From assembly GCF_001029505.1 (NCBI RefSeq), contig NZ_LEKH01000002.1:248001-312000 (forward strand): a stretch of 64,000 bases of DNA, given 5' to 3'. Source of the stretch: Rubrobacter aplysinae (GTDB taxonomy: Bacteria > Actinomycetota > Rubrobacteria > Rubrobacterales > Rubrobacteraceae). Under the pieces are notes generated by a model. The model was not told the DNA's origin. It ran no database searches and saw nothing but the letters and a program-made list of their open reading frames with translations. Of the stretch, positions 5,733-47,795 are shown piece after piece. Positions within the stretch are counted from its first letter, which is position 1; the number at the start of each line of letters is the position of its first letter. The translations under genes were made by a program, and so were the position numbers.

Positions 5733-8700
5733 CTAGGCTTCCTCCTTCGGGAGCCTGGCGAGCCGGCGCTTCTCCCGCCGCCAGCGGGCGCGGTCACGGC
5801 CCCCTTCGAGCACCGAGTAGCCGACCGGCACCACCAGGAGCGTCAGGAACGTCGAGGTCAAGAGGCCCCCGATCACCGGTATCGCCAGGCTGTTGGAGAT
5901 GAGTACCGCCCCGCCGCCGAAGCCTAAAGCAAGCGGCAACAGCGCGAAGATCGTCACCAGCGCCGTCATCAGTATCGGCCGCAGCCGGGCCCGCCCGGCC
6001 TCCACGATAGCCTCGGTCACGTTGTCGTGGCGGCCACGGGCCTTCACGACGAAGTCTATGAGCAGGATGGAGTTCGCTACCACGATCCCGATGAGTAGCA
6101 GCACGCCCAGAAGCGACGGCAGGCTTAACGCGGTGTCCGTGATGAGTAGCGCCCCGAACGCCCCGATGGTGGTGAGCGGCACGGCGAGCAGGATCACGAG
6201 CGGCAACAGCAGCGAGCTAAAGAACACGACCAGGATCAGGAACACCGCCGCTAGCGCGACCCCGATGGAGATGAACAGGCGATTGAAGCTCTCTGCTATG
6301 TCCTCGGACTCGCCGCCGACGGACGCCTCTACCCCGTTTGCGAGCTCCAGGTTACCCACCCGCTCCTCTACCGCCGTGGAGACGGCGTTCGTGTCGCCGC
6401 CGGAGATGTCACCGGAGACGGTCACGCCCGCCTCGCCGTCGGTGCGGCTTATCGCAGAGGGAGCCTCGGACTGCTCGACGTCGGCGACGTCCGCCACGCT
6501 CGCCCCGGCCGCCCCGACGGGCAGGCTCTCTACGTCGTCCACGGAGTCTACCCGGTCGGCCGGCACCCCCACGGAGACCGGCGTGTCGCCCGTAATGCTC
6601 AGGTCCGAGCCGCCCCCGCTTATGTAGGTCGCGAGCGACTGGGAGACCGCGCTCGGCGAGACCCCGGCCCGGGCCGCGTCTTGCGGGTTCACGTCTACCG
6701 AGATCTGCCGTCCGCCACCGGTGGCGTCGGTCTGCACGTTCTCCAGGCCAGAGACGCCGGAGATCTCGTCCACTATCTTTTCGGAGGCGACGGCGCGCTC
6801 CTCTTCGGAGCCGCCGGTTACGGAGACCGCGAGCCCGCCGGCCGGCGGTCCCTGCTCCTGGACCTGGGCCTGGAAGCCTCCGCCGAACAGCTCCTCACCT
6901 CGCTCCTGCACCCGTTCGAGGGTCGAGTCCACGTCCGCGTCTTCCGCGACGGAGATAAACGCCTGGGCCTGGTCGTCGGGACGCGCGCCCGGCTGTCCCT
7001 GGGCACTCTCGCCGCCCACGGAGAGCTGGTAGCTCTCCACTCCCCCGTCGTCGAGCAGGAAGTCCTCGAAGGGCCTGACCTGCTCCGAGCTCTCCTGCAG
7101 CGAAGACCCGTCTTCGAGCTCCACGTCGGCTATTACGGTCTGGGACTCGCTCGGCGGGAAGAAGCTCGTCGGCAGCAGGAACGCCGCCCCGAGGCCTCCC
7201 GCGAAGAGCACGCCGGCCACCACGAGCACGATGGCGCGGTGCCCGAGGCCCCAGCGGAGCACCGGGGTGTAGAGCCTGACCAGGAGCCCCTGACGCTGCT
7301 CCCCCGAGTTCTGTGGGTCCTGGGCCGTATTCTGGGGCACGCCCCGGCGCTTTATGAACAGGCTCACGAGCACCGGGATGATGGTCACGGAGACTATGAG
7401 AGACGCGATCAGGGCGAACGCGACCGTTAGCGACAGCGGCAGGAAGAACTCGCTCACGATGCCGCCGACGAGCCCGAGCGGCAGGAACACGGCCACGGTA
7501 CACAGCGTCGAGGAGGTGATTGCGCTCGCAACCTCGCTCGTGCCCCTCAGTGCAGCCTCATCCGGGTCGAGCCCTTCCTCCTGGATGTAGCGGTAGGCGT
7601 TCTCGAGCACCACGATGGCGTCGTCCACCACCCGCCCGATGGCGATGGTGAGCCCCGCGAGCGTGAGGATGTTCAGCGTCAGCCCCTCACCCCACGAGAA
7701 CAGGAGGGCTGCGAGCACCGAGGTCGGCAGGGAGACAGCCGTCACGAGCGTCGCCCTCACCGAGCGCAGAAAGATGAAGATCACGGCTATCGCAAACGCC
7801 GCGCCGAGCAGCGCCTTCTCCACGAGCCCGCTCACGGACTCCTCGACGTCCTCGGAGGTGTCGAAGACGACGTTCACGCCGTCGTCGCCGAGCTCGTCGC
7901 GTACCCCGCCGAGCTCTTCCCTGACCCCCTCCGCGACCTCGACGGTGTTCGCCTCCTGCTCCTTGATCACGGACAGCCCGATGCTCGGCTCGCCGTCGGT
8001 GCGCGAGATGCCGGCCAGGTTCTCCTCGCTCTGGCTTACCTCCGCAACGTCCTCCAGAAGCACCGGCTCCGGGGCCTCGCCCGACGGCGCTCCGCTGGGC
8101 GCTGCACCTGATGGCGCTCCACCAGACGAGCCTCCGGACGGCGGCGCGCCCCCGGTTGCCCCCTCGGGGGAGCCGCCGGAGCCACTGGCCCCGCTCGGGG
8201 CTCCGCCCGTGGGAGCGGCGGCCGCTGCGCCGCCTACCGGCAGCTCTCGTAGCGCCTCGATGCCGCCGAGCCCGGTCTCCGTTACGACGGGCGCGGAGGC
8301 GCCGTCCACCACGACCTCGCCGACCGGGGTAGAGCCGCCGGCCCCGCTTATCGCCCCGACAACGGCCTCCGGGGGCACGCCTTTCTCTTCGAGCTTCTCG
8401 GTGTCGAGCCGGACGCTTATCTGCTCTCCGGAGCCGCCGAGCAGGCTCGCGCTGCTCACACCCTCGACCTCTTCGAGGCCCGGTATTACCTCGTCCTCGG
8501 CGTACCGCGTGAGCTCCGTGAGGGAGCGGTCCCCGGCTTCGAGCGAGAGGTTTACGACCGGGAGGCTGTCGGCGGACTGGGTCGCGACCTCGGGGGACGC
8601 GGCCTGCTCGGGGAGCTCTACGCCTTCGAGTGCGGACTGCAGGTCCTCCTCGGCCTCCTCCGGGGTGGTGTCGAACCCGAACTCCACGTTTACCAGGGAG

Positions 8701-8966
8701 AACCCTTGTGTGGAGTTGGACTCTATGCCCTCGATCCCGCTTACACCCTCGACCGCATCCTCGATGCTCTGGGTGACCTGCTCGTCCACCACGTCCGGCC
8801 CGGCCCCGGGCACCGCGGTCTGCACGGTGACGAACGGGAACTCCACGTCGGGCAGCAGCTCCTGGTTGAGCTGGGTCGCGGCGTACCCGCCGCCTCCTAT
8901 AAGGAGCACGACGGCGAGCATCACGACCGACTTGTTGCCAAGACACCAGCTTACGATACGACTCAT
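5733..8966 (-). CDS. RND-family efflux transporter permease (AcrB/SwrC-like)
   Basis: The 1077-residue protein has the classic RND layout: TM1 (13-32), a first porter loop, TM2-6 around residues 375-540, a second large loop, and TM8-12 near the C-terminus. Motifs include QELLPDVEFPFVTV, GRVVDDAIVVLENAYR (proton-relay aspartates in TM4) and SLLGVLLLIGIVVANSILLID. These pumps use the proton gradient to expel drugs, fatty acids or lipids. No periplasmic adaptor or outer-membrane channel gene is nearby, as in Gram-positive SwrC-type pumps. Residues 245-300 are a low-complexity Gly/Ala/Ser/Pro insertion within the first porter loop. The start has AAGGAG 4 nt upstream and follows the MarR gene by 8 bp, so the pump is probably controlled by that repressor. 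Confidence 0.93.
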   Translation of the reverse strand: MSRIVSWCLGNKSVVMLAVVLLIGGGGYAATQLNQELLPDVEFPFVTVQTAVPGAGPDVVDEQVTQSIEDAVEGVSGIEGIESNSTQGFSLVNVEFGFDTTPEEAEEDLQSALEGVELPEQAASPEVATQSADSLPVVNLSLEAGDRSLTELTRYAEDEVIPGLEEVEGVSSASLLGGSGEQISVRLDTEKLEEKGVPPEAVVGAISGAGGSTPVGEVVVDGASAPVVTETGLGGIEALRELPVGGAAAAAPTGGAPSGASGSGGSPEGATGGAPPSGGSSGGAPSGAAPSGAPSGEAPEPVLLEDVAEVSQSEENLAGISRTDGEPSIGLSVIKEQEANTVEVAEGVREELGGVRDELGDDGVNVVFDTSEDVEESVSGLVEKALLGAAFAIAVIFIFLRSVRATLVTAVSLPTSVLAALLFSWGEGLTLNILTLAGLTIAIGRVVDDAIVVLENAYRYIQEEGLDPDEAALRGTSEVASAITSSTLCTVAVFLPLGLVGGIVSEFFLPLSLTVAFALIASLIVSVTIIPVLVSLFIKRRGVPQNTAQDPQNSGEQRQGLLVRLYTPVLRWGLGHRAIVLVVAGVLFAGGLGAAFLLPTSFFPPSESQTVIADVELEDGSSLQESSEQVRPFEDFLLDDGGVESYQLSVGGESAQGQPGARPDDQAQAFISVAEDADVDSTLERVQERGEELFGGGFQAQVQEQGPPAGGLAVSVTGGSEEERAVASEKIVDEISGVSGLENVQTDATGGGRQISVDVNPQDAARAGVSPSAVSQSLATYISGGGSDLSITGDTPVSVGVPADRVDSVDDVESLPVGAAGASVADVADVEQSEAPSAISRTDGEAGVTVSGDISGGDTNAVSTAVEERVGNLELANGVEASVGGESEDIAESFNRLFISIGVALAAVFLILVVFFSSLLLPLVILLAVPLTTIGAFGALLITDTALSLPSLLGVLLLIGIVVANSILLIDFVVKARGRHDNVTEAIVEAGRARLRPILMTALVTIFALLPLALGFGGGAVLISNSLAIPVIGGLLTSTFLTLLVVPVGYSVLEGGRDRARWRREKRRLARLPKEEA

Positions 8967-8974
8967 CCGGCTCC

Positions 8975-9502
8975 TTAACTTCCCTGACTCTCTACGTGGT
9001 GCTCGGCGTGGAGTTCCTCCGCGAGGAGCTTGAGGCCCCGCGAGAAAATCCGCGCCTCACCCTCCTCCATCCGGTCCACGGCCCGCTCCAGCGGCCTCCT
9101 GCGGGCGGCCACGATCCTCCGCGCCGACTCCCGGTCCGCGGCGGCGAGGTCCACGAGCACGACCCGCCGGTCCTCCGTATCGTGGCGGCGCTCCACGAGC
9201 CCGTAGCGAACCAGCCGGTCCACGAGCTGCGTCACCGCCGGCCTCGACACCTCTAGCACCTCCGCGAGCCCGCCCACGGAGTGCGGACCCCGGGCTAGTG
9301 CGATCATGATCTGGACGTGCCCGGTAGAGACCTGGGAGTCCTCCGGCAGCCGGTGCTCCGGGATCTCCTCCAGCTCCACCGCCGTGGGCCGGCCCAACTC
9401 CCGCCCGAGAACCGGCAGCAGGAGCAGCATCTCGTCGATGATCCCGGCGACGATCTCCTCCCGCGTCCCTCCCGTACCTTCCGCGCCTTCCCGTCCGTCC
9501 AA
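8975..9502 (-). CDS. MarR-family transcriptional repressor of the RND operon
   Basis: A TTG at 9502 preceded by GGAGG with a 6-nt gap is the best start; a TTG at 9517 lacks a ribosome binding site. The 175-residue product has a winged helix-turn-helix (VGGLAEVLEVSRPAVTQLVDRLVRYGLVERR then DTEDRRVVLVDL for the wing) between dimerisation helices, as in MarR/SlyA. MarR proteins bind palindromic operators as dimers and release them on ligand binding. The gene leads an operon with the RND pump and a thioredoxin-like gene, and two tandem repeats lie just upstream of its ribosome binding site, consistent with autoregulation of the whole operon. Confidence 0.88.
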   Translation of the reverse strand: MDGREGAEGTGGTREEIVAGIIDEMLLLLPVLGRELGRPTAVELEEIPEHRLPEDSQVSTGHVQIMIALARGPHSVGGLAEVLEVSRPAVTQLVDRLVRYGLVERRHDTEDRRVVLVDLAAADRESARRIVAARRRPLERAVDRMEEGEARIFSRGLKLLAEELHAEHHVESQGS

Positions 9503-38988: not shown

Positions 38989-40335
38989 CTAATAAGGGTA
39001 ATTCTCCTTGTGCTTCAACAATGATCTCCGCACACTTATCTCGTTTGCTAGGCGCTTATACTCACTACGAAGTTCAGGCGTAATATCATAGTTGTCGTTC
39101 CGTCCCGTAACAAGCGCCTGCCTGTGCAACTTGGCAAGAGTGCTTATGTCACTATCGCTATAGGCTATTTCCATTGCCTCATTAATTCTCAGTAACTCTC
39201 CGTACTCGTTTTCATTTGCTTTGTCACTGTCGATGTAGCGCCCAAATTCTCCGTAACTCAGACTAGAGTCAGAGGGTAATCTCTTACCTAAGTTAGATAT
39301 AGCTCGTTTAAGAATCTTGGATACTTGGTGCTGAGATACACCTAACATATCTGCGATCTCTTCTAAGGAGAGGCCATCGTAGAGGTGAATTTTGAGAATG
39401 TCTCTTTGCTCTTTAGAGATTATGGAATCATCCCGAAGTGCGTGATCGAGCATTTCGCGTTCCCTGGGCGTATTTCGTGACAGCCTTGATAACTGCTCTG
39501 CTTCGCTTATCGTTTCTTCACTAACTTCAGCCTGCAAATACTGCTTTGCGTACTCAATAAATCTATCAGTCGTATATATGTGGAAGATGACCCCAGCATC
39601 CTCCTTAATCTCCTGAATTAGCTCCTTACGAACACCGATGGTTTGACCATAGGCGCGCCACCACCAGTCATCTTTAACGTCTTTGGTGATAAAAGCAATG
39701 GGCTTGCTAGTCTCTAATGCTTTATCCACCATCTGACGCCAAATTACTAGATCTCCATGACCCTCATCCTTATACCCTGGGGGCACCTGCTTCTCTGTAC
39801 GGCGCTGCCCCTCCTCTTCGATCTTACTCAATTTCTCTTCGGAATAAGGTTCCCCGAGTCTGTCTCGTGCCAGATCTTCTACCTCTCTCCATATCCGGTC
39901 CTCTTGTGGAGAGTTGGAAATAGCAGGAAGCATATTCTCCCTAGTCTGTATATCGGCTATCAGCGCATTCAAAGAAGTCGACATGTTGTCCAGTAACTCC
40001 GGCGATTCGAAGGGAGCTCCTCTATGTAAATCCTCAGCACCCTCTTTTATGGAGCTTTTTGTTTCCTCTAAAGTCTCCCTGAGTTTTCTATGCTTCTCTC
40101 TAACCTCGTTAATAGTACCCATGCGGTTGTTCAGAAACTCGTAAGCAACTTGATGAGGTATCCATAGCTGATCCTGAAACCGTTGCAAGATCATTAACAG
40201 TTCGTCATGAGATTTCTTTGAATATCTGTATAGATCGAGCAGGACATTAGTATCTGGTACGAAGAGGGCGTTACGCCACAAATTTTCAAACTCATTCGTA
40301 CTGAGCCGATAATGCTCTGGAAACTTATCTTGCAT
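38989..40335 (-). CDS. PIN-like nuclease (PIN_8 type) fused to sigma-region-4-like HTH
   Basis: ATG 40335 follows AGGGGAG by 4 nt. The 448-residue protein starts with a PIN-like fold: FVPDTNVLLDLYRYSKKSHD (Asp28), IPHQVAYEFLNNR (Glu66), a helical insertion (75-190), GHGDLVIWRQMVDKA (Asp195) and IAFITKDVKDDWWW (Asp219, Asp222), the PIN_8/DUF4935 pattern of metal-dependent RNases. Residues 304-352 are a helix-turn-helix like sigma-70 region 4: ISKEQRDILKIHLYDGLSLEEIADMLGVSQHQVSKILKR. The last 95 residues are helical and unknown. The gene is markedly AT-richer than its surroundings, indicating transfer. It is a single gene with no recognisable antitoxin. Defence or stress RNase activity is inferred from the fold. 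Confidence 0.8.
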   Translation of the reverse strand: MQDKFPEHYRLSTNEFENLWRNALFVPDTNVLLDLYRYSKKSHDELLMILQRFQDQLWIPHQVAYEFLNNRMGTINEVREKHRKLRETLEETKSSIKEGAEDLHRGAPFESPELLDNMSTSLNALIADIQTRENMLPAISNSPQEDRIWREVEDLARDRLGEPYSEEKLSKIEEEGQRRTEKQVPPGYKDEGHGDLVIWRQMVDKALETSKPIAFITKDVKDDWWWRAYGQTIGVRKELIQEIKEDAGVIFHIYTTDRFIEYAKQYLQAEVSEETISEAEQLSRLSRNTPREREMLDHALRDDSIISKEQRDILKIHLYDGLSLEEIADMLGVSQHQVSKILKRAISNLGKRLPSDSSLSYGEFGRYIDSDKANENEYGELLRINEAMEIAYSDSDISTLAKLHRQALVTGRNDNYDITPELRSEYKRLANEISVRRSLLKHKENYPY

Positions 40336-40421
40336 GATACTCCCCTAAAGTTAATATACGTATTCAACAGGAAAGATGAGTCTACTGCAAAGATTCAACT
40401 CTCTGCAGCTCGCTTGCTACT

Positions 40422-40575
40422 CTAGCCTTGTAGGACCTTCGGCTCGTAGCCCGAGCGCGACCGCTCGAACCTCTCAAGATCGTCCTCGTAGGTCAGCGTG
40501 AAGCCGATGTCATCCAGGCCGTTTAACAGACGTTGGCGGGTGAAACCGTCCATCTCAAAACCCTCGAAGAAGTCC
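40422..40575 (-). pseudogene. leuD 3'-end fragment (copy 1)
   Basis: Reading leftwards, the frame gives FEMDGFTRQRLLNGLDDIG, FTLTYEDDLERFERSRSG, YEPKVLQG and TAG. It matches the C-terminus of the intact LeuD at 44.1 kb at 37 of 43 positions counted by eye. Upstream similarity ends near 40575, so only about 50 codons are present and there is no start. With the similar fragment at 41.5 kb it brackets the VapBC-like module. Confidence 0.85.
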
Positions 40576-40679
40576 GATTCTCTTTACAATGCACCTTTCG
40601 TGGTTCGTCCACCGTTACCAGCATCACGGACTTCATCATGTTTAACAGGAAGCAGATACTCAATCGCGTGACTTCCTGA

Positions 40680-40709
40680 TTGGAAAGAGTTCATGATGAT
40701 GTATATGAT
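40680..40709 (+). promoter_or_regulatory. Promoter of the VapBC-like module, possibly leaderless
   Basis: TTGGAA (40680-40685) and TATGAT (40704-40709) are spaced by 18 nt. The antitoxin ATG at 40716 begins 7 nt after the -10 box, where transcription would start, and no ribosome binding site precedes it. A leaderless mRNA is inferred. Confidence 0.5.
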
Positions 40710-40715
40710 GTAGGC

Positions 40716-41006
40716 ATGATTCGCAAGCAGCTCTACATAAGCGAGGACCACGAGCGGGCTCTGAAGGCTAGGGCCAGGGAAGCGGGAGTGTCGGAGGCGG
40801 AGTTGATGCGCCGGTTCCTCGATAAGCTCCTGCTCGGCTCCGAGGATAGTGGCGGAATGCCTCTGGGTCGGGCGCGGGCCGCGCTGGACTTTCTGGAGTC
40901 CACGGATGAGATCTCGGCCTCCCACTACTTCGCCGAGGACTATCGTTTCGACCGGGAAGGGCTATACGAGGACCGTGGAGCCGGCAAGCGCGCTAGACGC
41001 GGATAG
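40716..41006 (+). CDS. Antitoxin (VapB-like, ribbon-helix-helix type)
   Basis: ATG 40716 gives 96 residues. The N-terminus, MIRKQLYISEDHERALKARA then EAGVSEAELMRRFLDKLL, is a strand-helix-helix unit like CopG/Arc-type antitoxins that bind their own promoter as dimers. The C-terminal half (LESTDEISASHYFAEDYRFDREGLYEDR) would wrap the toxin. It stops 9 bp before a PIN toxin gene. The pair lies between two leuD tail fragments. Confidence 0.8.
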   Translation: MIRKQLYISEDHERALKARAREAGVSEAELMRRFLDKLLLGSEDSGGMPLGRARAALDFLESTDEISASHYFAEDYRFDREGLYEDRGAGKRARRG

Positions 41007-41015
41007 TCAAGCAAG

Positions 41016-41465
41016 GTGAGCCCACGCTACCTGCTGGATAGTAACATTCTGGTTTATACCCTCGACGCCCGGGAGCCTGATAAGAGGGAATGGGCGAAGG
41101 AGACAATCCGTAGGGCTGCTCTGGGTGGGAGTGCGGCGCTGCCCGCCCAGGGCCTCTCGGAGTTCTCCAACGTCTGCTTGAAAAAGCTGGAGCCCGCCCT
41201 GGAGCCTCGGGAGATACAGCAGGAGATCGAGAGGCTGCAAGTAGCTTTCCCGGTGATCCCGCTTACCGCCCCGGTGATTATGGAGGCATTGCGTGGGGTA
41301 GAAGAATACCGGTTCTCCTACTACGACGCCCAGATCTGGGCCGCAGCCCGCCTGGCACAGATCCCCGTAATCTTGAGCGAGGACTTCAACCCAGGATCTA
41401 CCCTGGAGGGCGTCTCGTTTGTAAACCCGCTCGATTCCGTGTTCGATCCCACAGCGTTAGAGTAG
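41016..41465 (+). CDS. PIN-domain toxin (VapC-like ribonuclease)
   Basis: GTG 41016 with AAGG upstream gives 149 residues with the PIN acidic residues: LLDSNILVYTLDAREPDKR, a Glu in QGLSEFSNV, and the YYDAQIWAAARL/ILSEDFNPG aspartates. VapC toxins are metal-dependent RNases that cleave tRNA or rRNA and are neutralised by the upstream antitoxin. The module is complete and apparently intact, with GC content near the average of the window. Its position between leuD 3' fragments suggests arrival as a mobile segment. Confidence 0.87.
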   Translation: MSPRYLLDSNILVYTLDAREPDKREWAKETIRRAALGGSAALPAQGLSEFSNVCLKKLEPALEPREIQQEIERLQVAFPVIPLTAPVIMEALRGVEEYRFSYYDAQIWAAARLAQIPVILSEDFNPGSTLEGVSFVNPLDSVFDPTALE

Positions 41466-41537: not shown

Positions 41538-41690
41538 ACTTAAACTGGGGCCAGGACTTCATTCTTTTCAGATCACGGCCGGGAAGCGTATTCTCAAACC
41601 CCTCAAGCTCATCCTCGTAAGTAGGCGTCAAGCCGATGTCGTGGAGGCTCAAGAGGCGGTGGCGGGTGAAGTCGTCCATCCCGAAGCTCG
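41538..41690 (-). pseudogene. leuD 3'-end fragment (copy 2), more decayed
   Basis: The minus frame reads SFGMDDFTRHRLL, then SLHDIGLTPTYEDELEGFEN, and loses similarity before a TAG at 41538-41540. Compared with intact LeuD it lacks one codon and has changed its end. It has the same orientation as copy 1 and as leuD. The rest of 41466-41812 shows no gene. Confidence 0.8.
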
Positions 41691-44118: not shown

Positions 44119-44706
44119 CTACAGAACCTTCGGCTTGTAGCCCGGACGCGACCGCTCGAACCTCTCCAGCTCGTCCTCGTAAGTCAGCGTCAGGCCGATG
44201 TCGTCGAGGCCGTTCAGGAGACGGTGGCGGGTGAAGTCGTCCATCTCGAAGCTCTCCGAAACGCCCGGTCCCTCGACGGTGCGGGTCTCGAGGTCCACCG
44301 TTATCCTGGCCTCGGGGTCCTTGCGGGTCTCCTCCAGGAGTTTGTCCACGGCGGGTTCGGGAAGCTCCACGGCGAGGAGGCCTATCTTGGCGCAGTTGTT
44401 CTTGAAGATGTCGGCCAGGCTCTTTGCGACGACCGCCCCGAAGCCGAAGTCCTGGATAGCCCAGGGGGCGTGCTCGCGGCTCGAACCACTACCGAAGTTG
44501 TCACCGGCGAGGAGTATCGTCGCCCCGACGTGCTCGGTCCGGTTCATTATGAAGTCCGGGTCCTCGCGCCACTCCTGGAAGAGGAACTGGCCGAATCCGG
44601 TGCGCTCGATGCGCTTGAGAGCGTCGCTGGGTACGATCTGGTCCGTGTCGACGTCGCTGTACCCGAGCGGAAGCGCCTTACCCTCTACGCGGCTTACGGG
44701 CTCCAT
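44119..44706 (-). CDS. leuD: 3-isopropylmalate dehydratase small subunit
   Basis: ATG 44706 follows GGAGG by 7 nt and gives 195 residues: YSDVDTDQIVPSDALKRIERTGFGQFLF, DNFGSGSSREHAPWAIQDFGFGAVVA, FKNNCAKIGLLAVELP and a C-terminus of TRHRLLNGLDDIGLTLTYEDELERFERSRPGYKPKVL. LeuC/LeuD isomerise 2-isopropylmalate to 3-isopropylmalate in leucine synthesis. The start overlaps the leuC stop by 1 nt (TAATG), giving translational coupling. Its last 50 codons occur again as two truncated copies to the left. Confidence 0.95.
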   Translation of the reverse strand: MEPVSRVEGKALPLGYSDVDTDQIVPSDALKRIERTGFGQFLFQEWREDPDFIMNRTEHVGATILLAGDNFGSGSSREHAPWAIQDFGFGAVVAKSLADIFKNNCAKIGLLAVELPEPAVDKLLEETRKDPEARITVDLETRTVEGPGVSESFEMDDFTRHRLLNGLDDIGLTLTYEDELERFERSRPGYKPKVL

Positions 44707-46973: not shown

Positions 46974-47795
46974 ATGGGGTTACTCACATTACTTACAGCA
47001 ACTCTAATAGCTAGCGTCGCTCTTATGAGCAGTTTAAAGACGCAACAAACTCCAGAAGAAGAGAACTCTAAGAAGGGTCTTCATGATTTCTATGTGATTC
47101 TGGAAAGAATTTGGCGCGAACTAAGAGAGTTAAACGAGCAACGCCGACAATCCAATGAACCAGATCCACGAACTCAACTTCACCGTATTAGCTCTATGGA
47201 TGGGTACCAGTTTGAAGCTTTCATGGCTGGTGTTTTTCAGCGTCTTGGGCACGAGGTCTCTCCTATGGGAGCTTCAGGCGACCAAGGTGTAGATCTCCTT
47301 TTCAGGTCTAATACCGAATTGGTAGCAGTCCAATGCAAGAACTATGACCGTCCAGTCGGTAATACGCCTGTCCAGGAGGTATTCGCAGGAGCGAAATATC
47401 ACAATGCGGATCGAACTATAGTAGTGGCACCAGCAGGATTTACCCCAGGAGCGGAAGAGCTAGCAGGAAGAACAGATACGCAACTGATCGATTTAGATGG
47501 CATCGAGAGGCTGCTAGAACGAAGTTCTGATAGACAAGAAACCTATGGGGATACGAAGCCTAGATACGGAAAATACTTTTGGTGGATAGTAATAGTATTC
47601 TTCCTATTTCCCGTAATTATCAGTGTAATTCTCCTACTCGTTCCACCTGTAGGACTGTATCTAATGTGGAGATATACAGAGTGGAGCAATAGAACCAAGT
47701 GGATCATTACTATTATCACCATTATTGTGGTCACTATATTATTAGTTTGGGCGGGCGTAAGCGATCAGTCACCTCCTACAAACCAGCCCTCATAG
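46974..47795 (+). CDS. Membrane-anchored Mrr-type restriction endonuclease
   Basis: The 273-residue protein has an N-terminal TM segment (3-20), a charged helix (about 28-62), and an Mrr_cat nuclease domain (about 70-180) with Glu81 in YQFEAF, Asp107 in GDQGVDLLF and Gln120-x-Lys122 in AVQCKNY, the PD-(D/E)XK active site. Residues 198-230 and 242-262 are two strongly hydrophobic TM segments. Mrr proteins cut modified or foreign DNA; a membrane-tethered form could act on incoming DNA. Base composition is clearly lower in GC than that of leuC and trpS on either side, pointing to horizontal transfer. No ribosome binding site stands out. Confidence 0.82.
   Translation: MGLLTLLTATLIASVALMSSLKTQQTPEEENSKKGLHDFYVILERIWRELRELNEQRRQSNEPDPRTQLHRISSMDGYQFEAFMAGVFQRLGHEVSPMGASGDQGVDLLFRSNTELVAVQCKNYDRPVGNTPVQEVFAGAKYHNADRTIVVAPAGFTPGAEELAGRTDTQLIDLDGIERLLERSSDRQETYGDTKPRYGKYFWWIVIVFFLFPVIISVILLLVPPVGLYLMWRYTEWSNRTKWIITIITIIVVTILLVWAGVSDQSPPTNQPS

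Follow-up and report, generated by a model that had tools for sequence, protein, structure and literature searches.

Within a 64,000-nucleotide stretch of the Rubrobacter aplysinae genome, here called the window, a single gene encodes a protein (P0001) in which a PIN-like nuclease is followed by a helix-turn-helix (HTH) domain of the sigma-70 region 4 type. Such a fusion raises the question of what the second domain does for the nuclease, and whether the protein acts as a regulator of its own gene, as a toxin, or as an effector with another trigger. For the nuclease family to which it belongs, PIN_8 (PHROG 9788), existing annotations go no further than an unknown phage protein or a PIN-like domain, and the literature searched yielded no functional paper on it.

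Domain architecture and predicted fold of P0001

The P0001 gene is an intact open reading frame (ORF) of 448 codons that begins with ATG (Table 1). The PIN_8 profile (PF18476) matches residues 23-238 with an E-value of 2.2e-54 and 185.2 bits against a cut-off of 26.1, and it is covered from 1 to 227 of its 227 positions, which corresponds to whole-domain membership above the curated cut-off. Residues 307-348 match the Sigma70_r4 profile (PF04545; E 3.3e-10, 39.7 bits against a cut-off of 24.1). AlphaFold2, run with 76 PIN-only homologs, gave a model with a mean pLDDT of 82.7, in which blocks of residues 1-280 are mostly at 87-98. In VIA-align comparisons, residues 20-270 of this model align to the Pyrococcus VapC4-type PIN protein 1v96 (Z 9.9, rmsd 3.5 Å, 144 aligned residues), and residues 291-355 to the -35-binding domain of SigD (3vfz; Z 9.7, rmsd 2.3, 62 residues). 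Foldseek alone returned no PDB match for the model at E≤0.001, and listed sigma-4 domains with probability 1.00. Beyond the HTH, helices are predicted with low confidence, and the C-terminus modeled by itself attains a pLDDT of 52. The initial annotation had described one protein composed of a PIN_8-type nuclease, a complete region-4-like HTH and a helical tail, and had proposed a structural comparison against PIN and sigma-4 folds; both the profiles and the predicted folds agree with that layout.

Judged by predicted fold and conserved acids, P0001 belongs to PIN_8 and to the PIN nuclease superfamily, and its residues 291-355 correspond, by profile and modeled fold, to a sigma-70 region 4 domain. 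The domain resembles sigma-70 region 4 and YlxM-type HTH domains in fold and in its Pfam match above the cut-off, but differs from them in that region 2 is lacking and in its fusion behind a nuclease. P0001 is not an RNA polymerase sigma factor, as residues 1-285 are occupied by PIN_8 and the family-level sigma score (TIGR02937) is 33.9 bits, under the cut-off of 42.9. Because region 2 is absent, it cannot work as a complete sigma factor.

Residues D28, N30, E66, R179, D190, D195, W199, K221, D223, and W224 are invariant in 77 homologs; these were gathered with two peptide-pattern seeds, around D28 and residues 219-225, so conservation near those positions is partly selected for, and E66, R179, D190, D195, and W199 lie outside the seeds. 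Residue 219 is D in 65 homologs and E in 12, whereas position 222 is variable (E in 42, D in 23, others in the remainder). Asp28, Glu66, Asp195, and Asp219, which had been named as catalytic acids, are thus conserved; Asp222, offered alongside them, is not, and D223 takes its place as the fourth acid. By analogy with other PIN proteins, the nuclease is most likely an RNase.

Table 1. Features of the P0001 gene and of the neighboring leuD copies (positions within the window).
Feature	Position	Strand	Basis
Gene for the PIN_8/sigma-4 protein P0001	38989..40335	-	Intact ORF, single genome copy, 45% GC
PIN_8 nuclease domain, residues 23-238	39622..40269	-	Pfam, PIN fold, conserved acids
Active-site acids D28, E66, D195, D219, D223	within 39622..40269	-	Conservation in 77 homologs
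Junction segment, residues 268-290, QAEVSEETISEAEQL	39466..39534	-	Family-wide conservation ends here; the variable C-terminus follows
Sigma-70 region-4-like HTH, residues 291-355	39271..39465	-	Pfam Sigma70_r4 and fold match
Helical tail, fold unassigned, residues 356-448	38992..39270	-	Low pLDDT (42-70), no Pfam family
Upstream region, presumed promoter	40336..40431	-	No significant operator-like repeat
Resident leuD, 3' end repeated elsewhere	44119..44700	-	leuCD conserved in relatives
leuD 3' end, second copy	40432..40576	-	83% to 44123-44267; still reads as LeuD C-terminus
leuD 3' end, third copy	41593..41680	-	Degraded copy of 44123-44267

Constant nuclease and variable C-termini in the PIN_8 family

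Viral contigs searched with a profile yielded 80 loci, and two further searches brought the collection to 120 unique PIN_8 proteins, mostly from prophages. Nearly all are 350-500 amino acids long, and all contain the nuclease of about 280 residues. At the same BLAST threshold, the N-terminal parts of 121 proteins form one cluster and the C-terminal parts 86 (65 singletons), and no C-terminus was conserved across the set at E<1e-4. In the 77 homologs, conservation drops from 1.2-2.9 bits to 0.3-0.9 past P0001 residue 280, and the junction stretch (residues 268-290) recurs. Where two nucleases are 70-80% identical, those C-termini that are detectably related average 33% identity; below 60% nuclease identity, C-termini are detectably related in no more than 5% of pairs.

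Few of these C-termini are recognizable. They include a PcrA/UvrD-type tudor domain (L052, L085), DUF7662 (L038), the sigma-4 domain of P0001, and a GHKL ATPase in one plasmid protein, to which L122 can be added by reading of its sequence. Others appear by eye as coiled coils or repeats, and most match nothing. For example, a 574-residue PIN_8 protein from a 5.2-kb Klebsiella plasmid (L121:2998-4722) ends in repeated MDSLRDREEAMRRAGIS-like units, and L248 carries another repeat array. Tandem PIN_8 genes with unrelated C-termini occupy about 7671-9062 and 9158-10556 of L104. One phage contig (L110) and one actinomycete genome (L271) encode PIN_8 proteins with a common C-terminal module (53% over 157 amino acids), so modules recur across elements.

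The sigma-4 HTH itself was found in no other of roughly 135 homologs examined, which makes this module a singleton. Scans of genome contigs and viral contigs returned only sigma factors, or nothing, and the P0001 C-terminal query gave no plasmid match at E<0.01. Because the genome contigs were scanned once, with a single sequence, the rarity of the fusion is better supported than its uniqueness. The initial annotation had held that absence of the fusion from homologs would count against it. That absence applies to the sigma-4 part in the collections searched, whereas the layout of a nuclease followed by a C-terminal module is near-universal. The nuclease is not permanently paired with the HTH, which instead occupies a hypervariable C-terminal slot that is filled by many exchangeable modules across the family.

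Comparison of closely related elements indicates how the C-terminus changes. Between sister prophages, identity is 79-96% for the PIN part and 31-77% for the C-terminus (at most 58% in 8 of 9 pairs); flanking proteins have median identities of 77-96%, and the medians span 72-98% once the last thirds of those proteins are included. Three pairs (L083/L073, L112/L077, and L042/L041) combine nucleases of 74-80% identity with C-termini that are dissimilar beyond the junction. For L056/L053, L056/L045, and L107/L101, DNA identity is lost within the gene, close to the boundary between PIN part and C-terminus, and restarts 5-19 bases past the last codon. Among pairs with usable dS, this value is alike in both parts, and dN in the C-terminus mostly exceeds that in the PIN part by a factor of about 3-11 (0.034 versus 0.342 in L062/L046; 0.064 versus 0.727 in L056/L045), with L116/L113 as an exception in which the pattern runs the opposite way. 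Given this dN excess, the dissimilar C-termini and the DNA breaks, rapid divergence in place and replacement both occur. Pairwise dN/dS in the C-terminus is 0.2-0.5; as it stays below 1, positive selection is suggested and not proven, and relaxed constraint together with recombination could explain part of the pattern. At the level of sequence comparison, the PIN_8 nuclease is under strong purifying selection, and the C-terminus diverges several-fold faster and has been repeatedly replaced.

Host locus and genomic contexts of relatives

GC content is 45.0% in the PIN part of the P0001 gene and 43.9% in the C-terminal part, against 60-70% in most of the window and 66% in the genome. Because both parts are similarly low relative to their surroundings, the gene was probably acquired horizontally as one unit. 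Capture of the HTH from the host's own sigma factors was considered as well and is unlikely, as the best match in the same genome is 33% identical and the HTH-encoding DNA has 40% GC. No PIN_8 gene occurs in 38 other genomes searched of the same class, and among about 396 Actinomycetota genomes the family appears in 3 others, each with another C-terminus.

The gene is bordered by a convergent SpoIIE phosphatase gene on one side and, on the other, by a leuD remnant followed by a vapBC-like pair. No antitoxin gene adjoins it, as there is no neighboring ORF on the same strand. The vapBC-like genes at 40680-41465 form a unit of their own on the opposite strand, beyond the leuD remnant, and this arrangement sets P0001 apart from a type II toxin-antitoxin (TA) system of the VapBC kind. 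The pair itself (40680-41006 and 41016-41465, plus strand) consists of a weak RHH-type antitoxin and a PIN-domain toxin, and lies between two leuD remnants. Copies of the leuD 3' end number three in this genome and one in each of seven relatives. Where flanking sequence is available for a relative, leuCD is not followed by the PIN_8 gene or by the other genes that here separate the leuD copies. The copy closest to the P0001 gene is a probable attachment or accretion scar, and leuD has the appearance of a hotspot at which mobile segments integrate or accrete. No recognizable prophage or integrase is present near the gene. These observations agree with the earlier description of an AT-rich gene that stands alone in a zone of gene-end duplications and has no separate antitoxin. 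A second AT-rich gene lies near leuCD (46974-47795, plus strand); its product has an Mrr_cat restriction-endonuclease domain (E 9e-24) followed by apparent membrane helices, and is defense-like.

Relatives of P0001 are found mainly in mobile elements. Among 135 neighboring ORFs, integrases are matched most often (19 and 15 members in two families that may overlap); phage regulators and tail tape-measure proteins are frequent as well. One PIN_8 gene lies directly against an integrase (L056), and another between a regulator and the GPD gene of a P2-like prophage (L101). In Escherichia coli, one DNA query found a PIN_8 gene in 2 of 5,426 genomes, located at the end of a prophage with mntR on one side and tail genes on the other; other E. 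coli DNA queries found 0 and 0 genomes. Such scarcity, as estimated with that one nucleotide query, may be why the family has not stood out in E. coli-based screens. At plasmid loci, picked by rank and diversity, the neighbors comprise SIR2 with an ATP-binding protein (twice), Abi, restriction-modification, an S-4TM (pore-forming) effector with a nucleotidyltransferase, and phosphoadenosine phosphosulfate reductase with DGQHR. A search of isolated-phage records returned nothing, so the distribution observed here covers predicted prophages and plasmids and not cultured phages. As read from these contigs, PIN_8 genes occupy accessory-gene positions in prophages and defense-gene neighborhoods on plasmids, with no antitoxin partner seen. 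Two short PIN_8 genes (359 amino acids; L274:5977-7056 and L275:5977-7056) sit in the same gene order, alongside genes for a DEAD/DEAH helicase and an ATP-binding protein, to which L274 adds a GIY-YIG nuclease and a cytosine methyltransferase; this arrangement is possibly a multi-gene defense operon.

Candidate functions and comparison with known systems

Current evidence favors the hypothesis that P0001 is a mobile, antitoxin-free effector nuclease of the defense type in which sensing or targeting falls to the variable C-terminus and, in this member, to its sigma-4-like fold. We place the probability of this reading, which is drawn from comparative sequence data, at roughly 0.55. An effector whose C-terminus decides when or where it acts fits the intact and constrained nuclease, the lack of an antitoxin, the fast-evolving tail, and residence in mobile elements. 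PIN_8 would then combine a constant nuclease with an interchangeable C-terminal module, and P0001 would be a horizontally acquired stand-alone member. The nuclease may be kept inactive until the module meets its cognate signal or target, and its activation would result in anti-phage or inter-element defense. In P0001, the module would comprise the HTH and the helical tail. Since it has a sigma-4 fold, its probable ligand is promoter DNA, the RNA polymerase (RNAP) beta-flap, or a factor that normally binds sigma region 4.

A more specific version of this scheme is speculative and can be put forward only tentatively. PIN_8 proteins would be polymorphic one-gene immune effectors of prophages and plasmids with swappable sensors, and the sigma-4 mimic of P0001 would serve as a bait or dock on the transcription machinery, alongside the RNAP-linked tudor domain, so that takeover of RNAP by a phage would release or aim the nuclease. 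The PcrA/UvrD-type tudor domain is a module that contacts RNA polymerase. The link to transcription through tudor tails involves few members and is worth testing. More generally, the pattern of a constant nuclease with a variable tail provides the family with a testable role and with a natural library of sensor domains, in which the sigma-4 fusion is a member whose ligand can be guessed (promoter DNA, the RNAP flap, or an anti-sigma-like phage factor).

Alternatively, PIN_8 proteins may regulate the life cycle of the prophage or plasmid that carries them. The tail would bind element DNA or transcription complexes, the nuclease would process element transcripts, and the tail would vary by following the element's own sites. 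The position of PIN_8 genes beside an integrase, or between repressor or replication genes and late genes, is consistent with this role, and two of the few recognizable tails (sigma-4 and tudor) are transcription-related. However, the surrounding phage genes remain similar, at the median identities given above, even where the tail has changed, so the tail is not simply following its own phage; the same family also sits beside defense genes on plasmids. Regulation of the element is rather unlikely.

The initial annotation instead proposed a self-regulating RNase, in which the HTH would bind its own operator or direct a promoter within a compact stress or defense system. The HTH does have a complete region-4 fold, the gene has no separate regulator, and a 14-nt imperfect direct repeat lies upstream. 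This repeat is nevertheless not above chance, as it was equaled by 60 of 500 shuffles, and the best inverted repeat was equaled by 102 of 500. Homologs contain the same nuclease without an HTH, and without region 2 the protein lacks complete sigma factor function. Because no operator-like repeat exceeds chance and the HTH is not common to the family, autoregulation is unsupported, and we consider the proposal unlikely. Its broader element, a defense-type role, does fit the contexts of the homologs.

The variable C-terminus could also be a fused inhibitory, antitoxin-like domain and not a sensor, with its variability reflecting relaxed constraint on the inhibitor. This view would account for the missing antitoxin gene, and for the short PIN_8 proteins of L274 and L275, which a partner in the operon could inhibit in trans. 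Yet outright swaps for unrelated modules and cassette boundaries at the DNA level exceed what relaxed constraint would produce, and an inhibitor usually evolves in concert with a conserved surface, which leaves the idea distinctly doubtful. A decaying or neutral passenger of a genomic island, functionless in its host, would suit the foreign composition, the uniqueness within the class, and the adjoining graveyard of leuD ends, but is very improbable for a complete ORF in which every invariant residue is intact.

Returning to the effector reading, several known systems offer comparisons. P0001 is a typical PIN_8 protein in its full-length nuclease match, invariant residues, stand-alone gene, and C-terminal extension, and differs from all other members in its sigma-region-4 C-terminus. 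VapC toxins have in common with it the PIN fold and the acidic active site; PIN_8 differs from VapBC by a long helical insertion, the additional C-terminal module, and the lack of an adjacent antitoxin.

The closest tested system is DS-3 of the DefensePredictor study (PMC13092281), an antitoxin-free, one-protein PIN RNase that protects E. coli in a catalysis-dependent manner, and its authors propose auto-inhibition until infection. Compared by description only, DS-3 resembles P0001 as a single protein with a split PIN domain and without a cognate antitoxin; unlike for PIN_8, a variable tail is not described in the text consulted (PMC13092281).

The system had also been said to match no named type, in agreement with the PADLOC (2023) anti-phage models, none of which matches P0001 at E≤0.001; across the 77 homologs, these models gave three weak single-member matches. 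The main texts of Vassallo 2022 and Rousset 2022 nowhere mention PIN, and PIN is likewise absent from the main text of the study on P2/P4 prophage defense hotspots (PMC9122126). Several PIN_8 genes occupy accessory positions of temperate phages, including P2-like ones, as do the genes of those hotspots.
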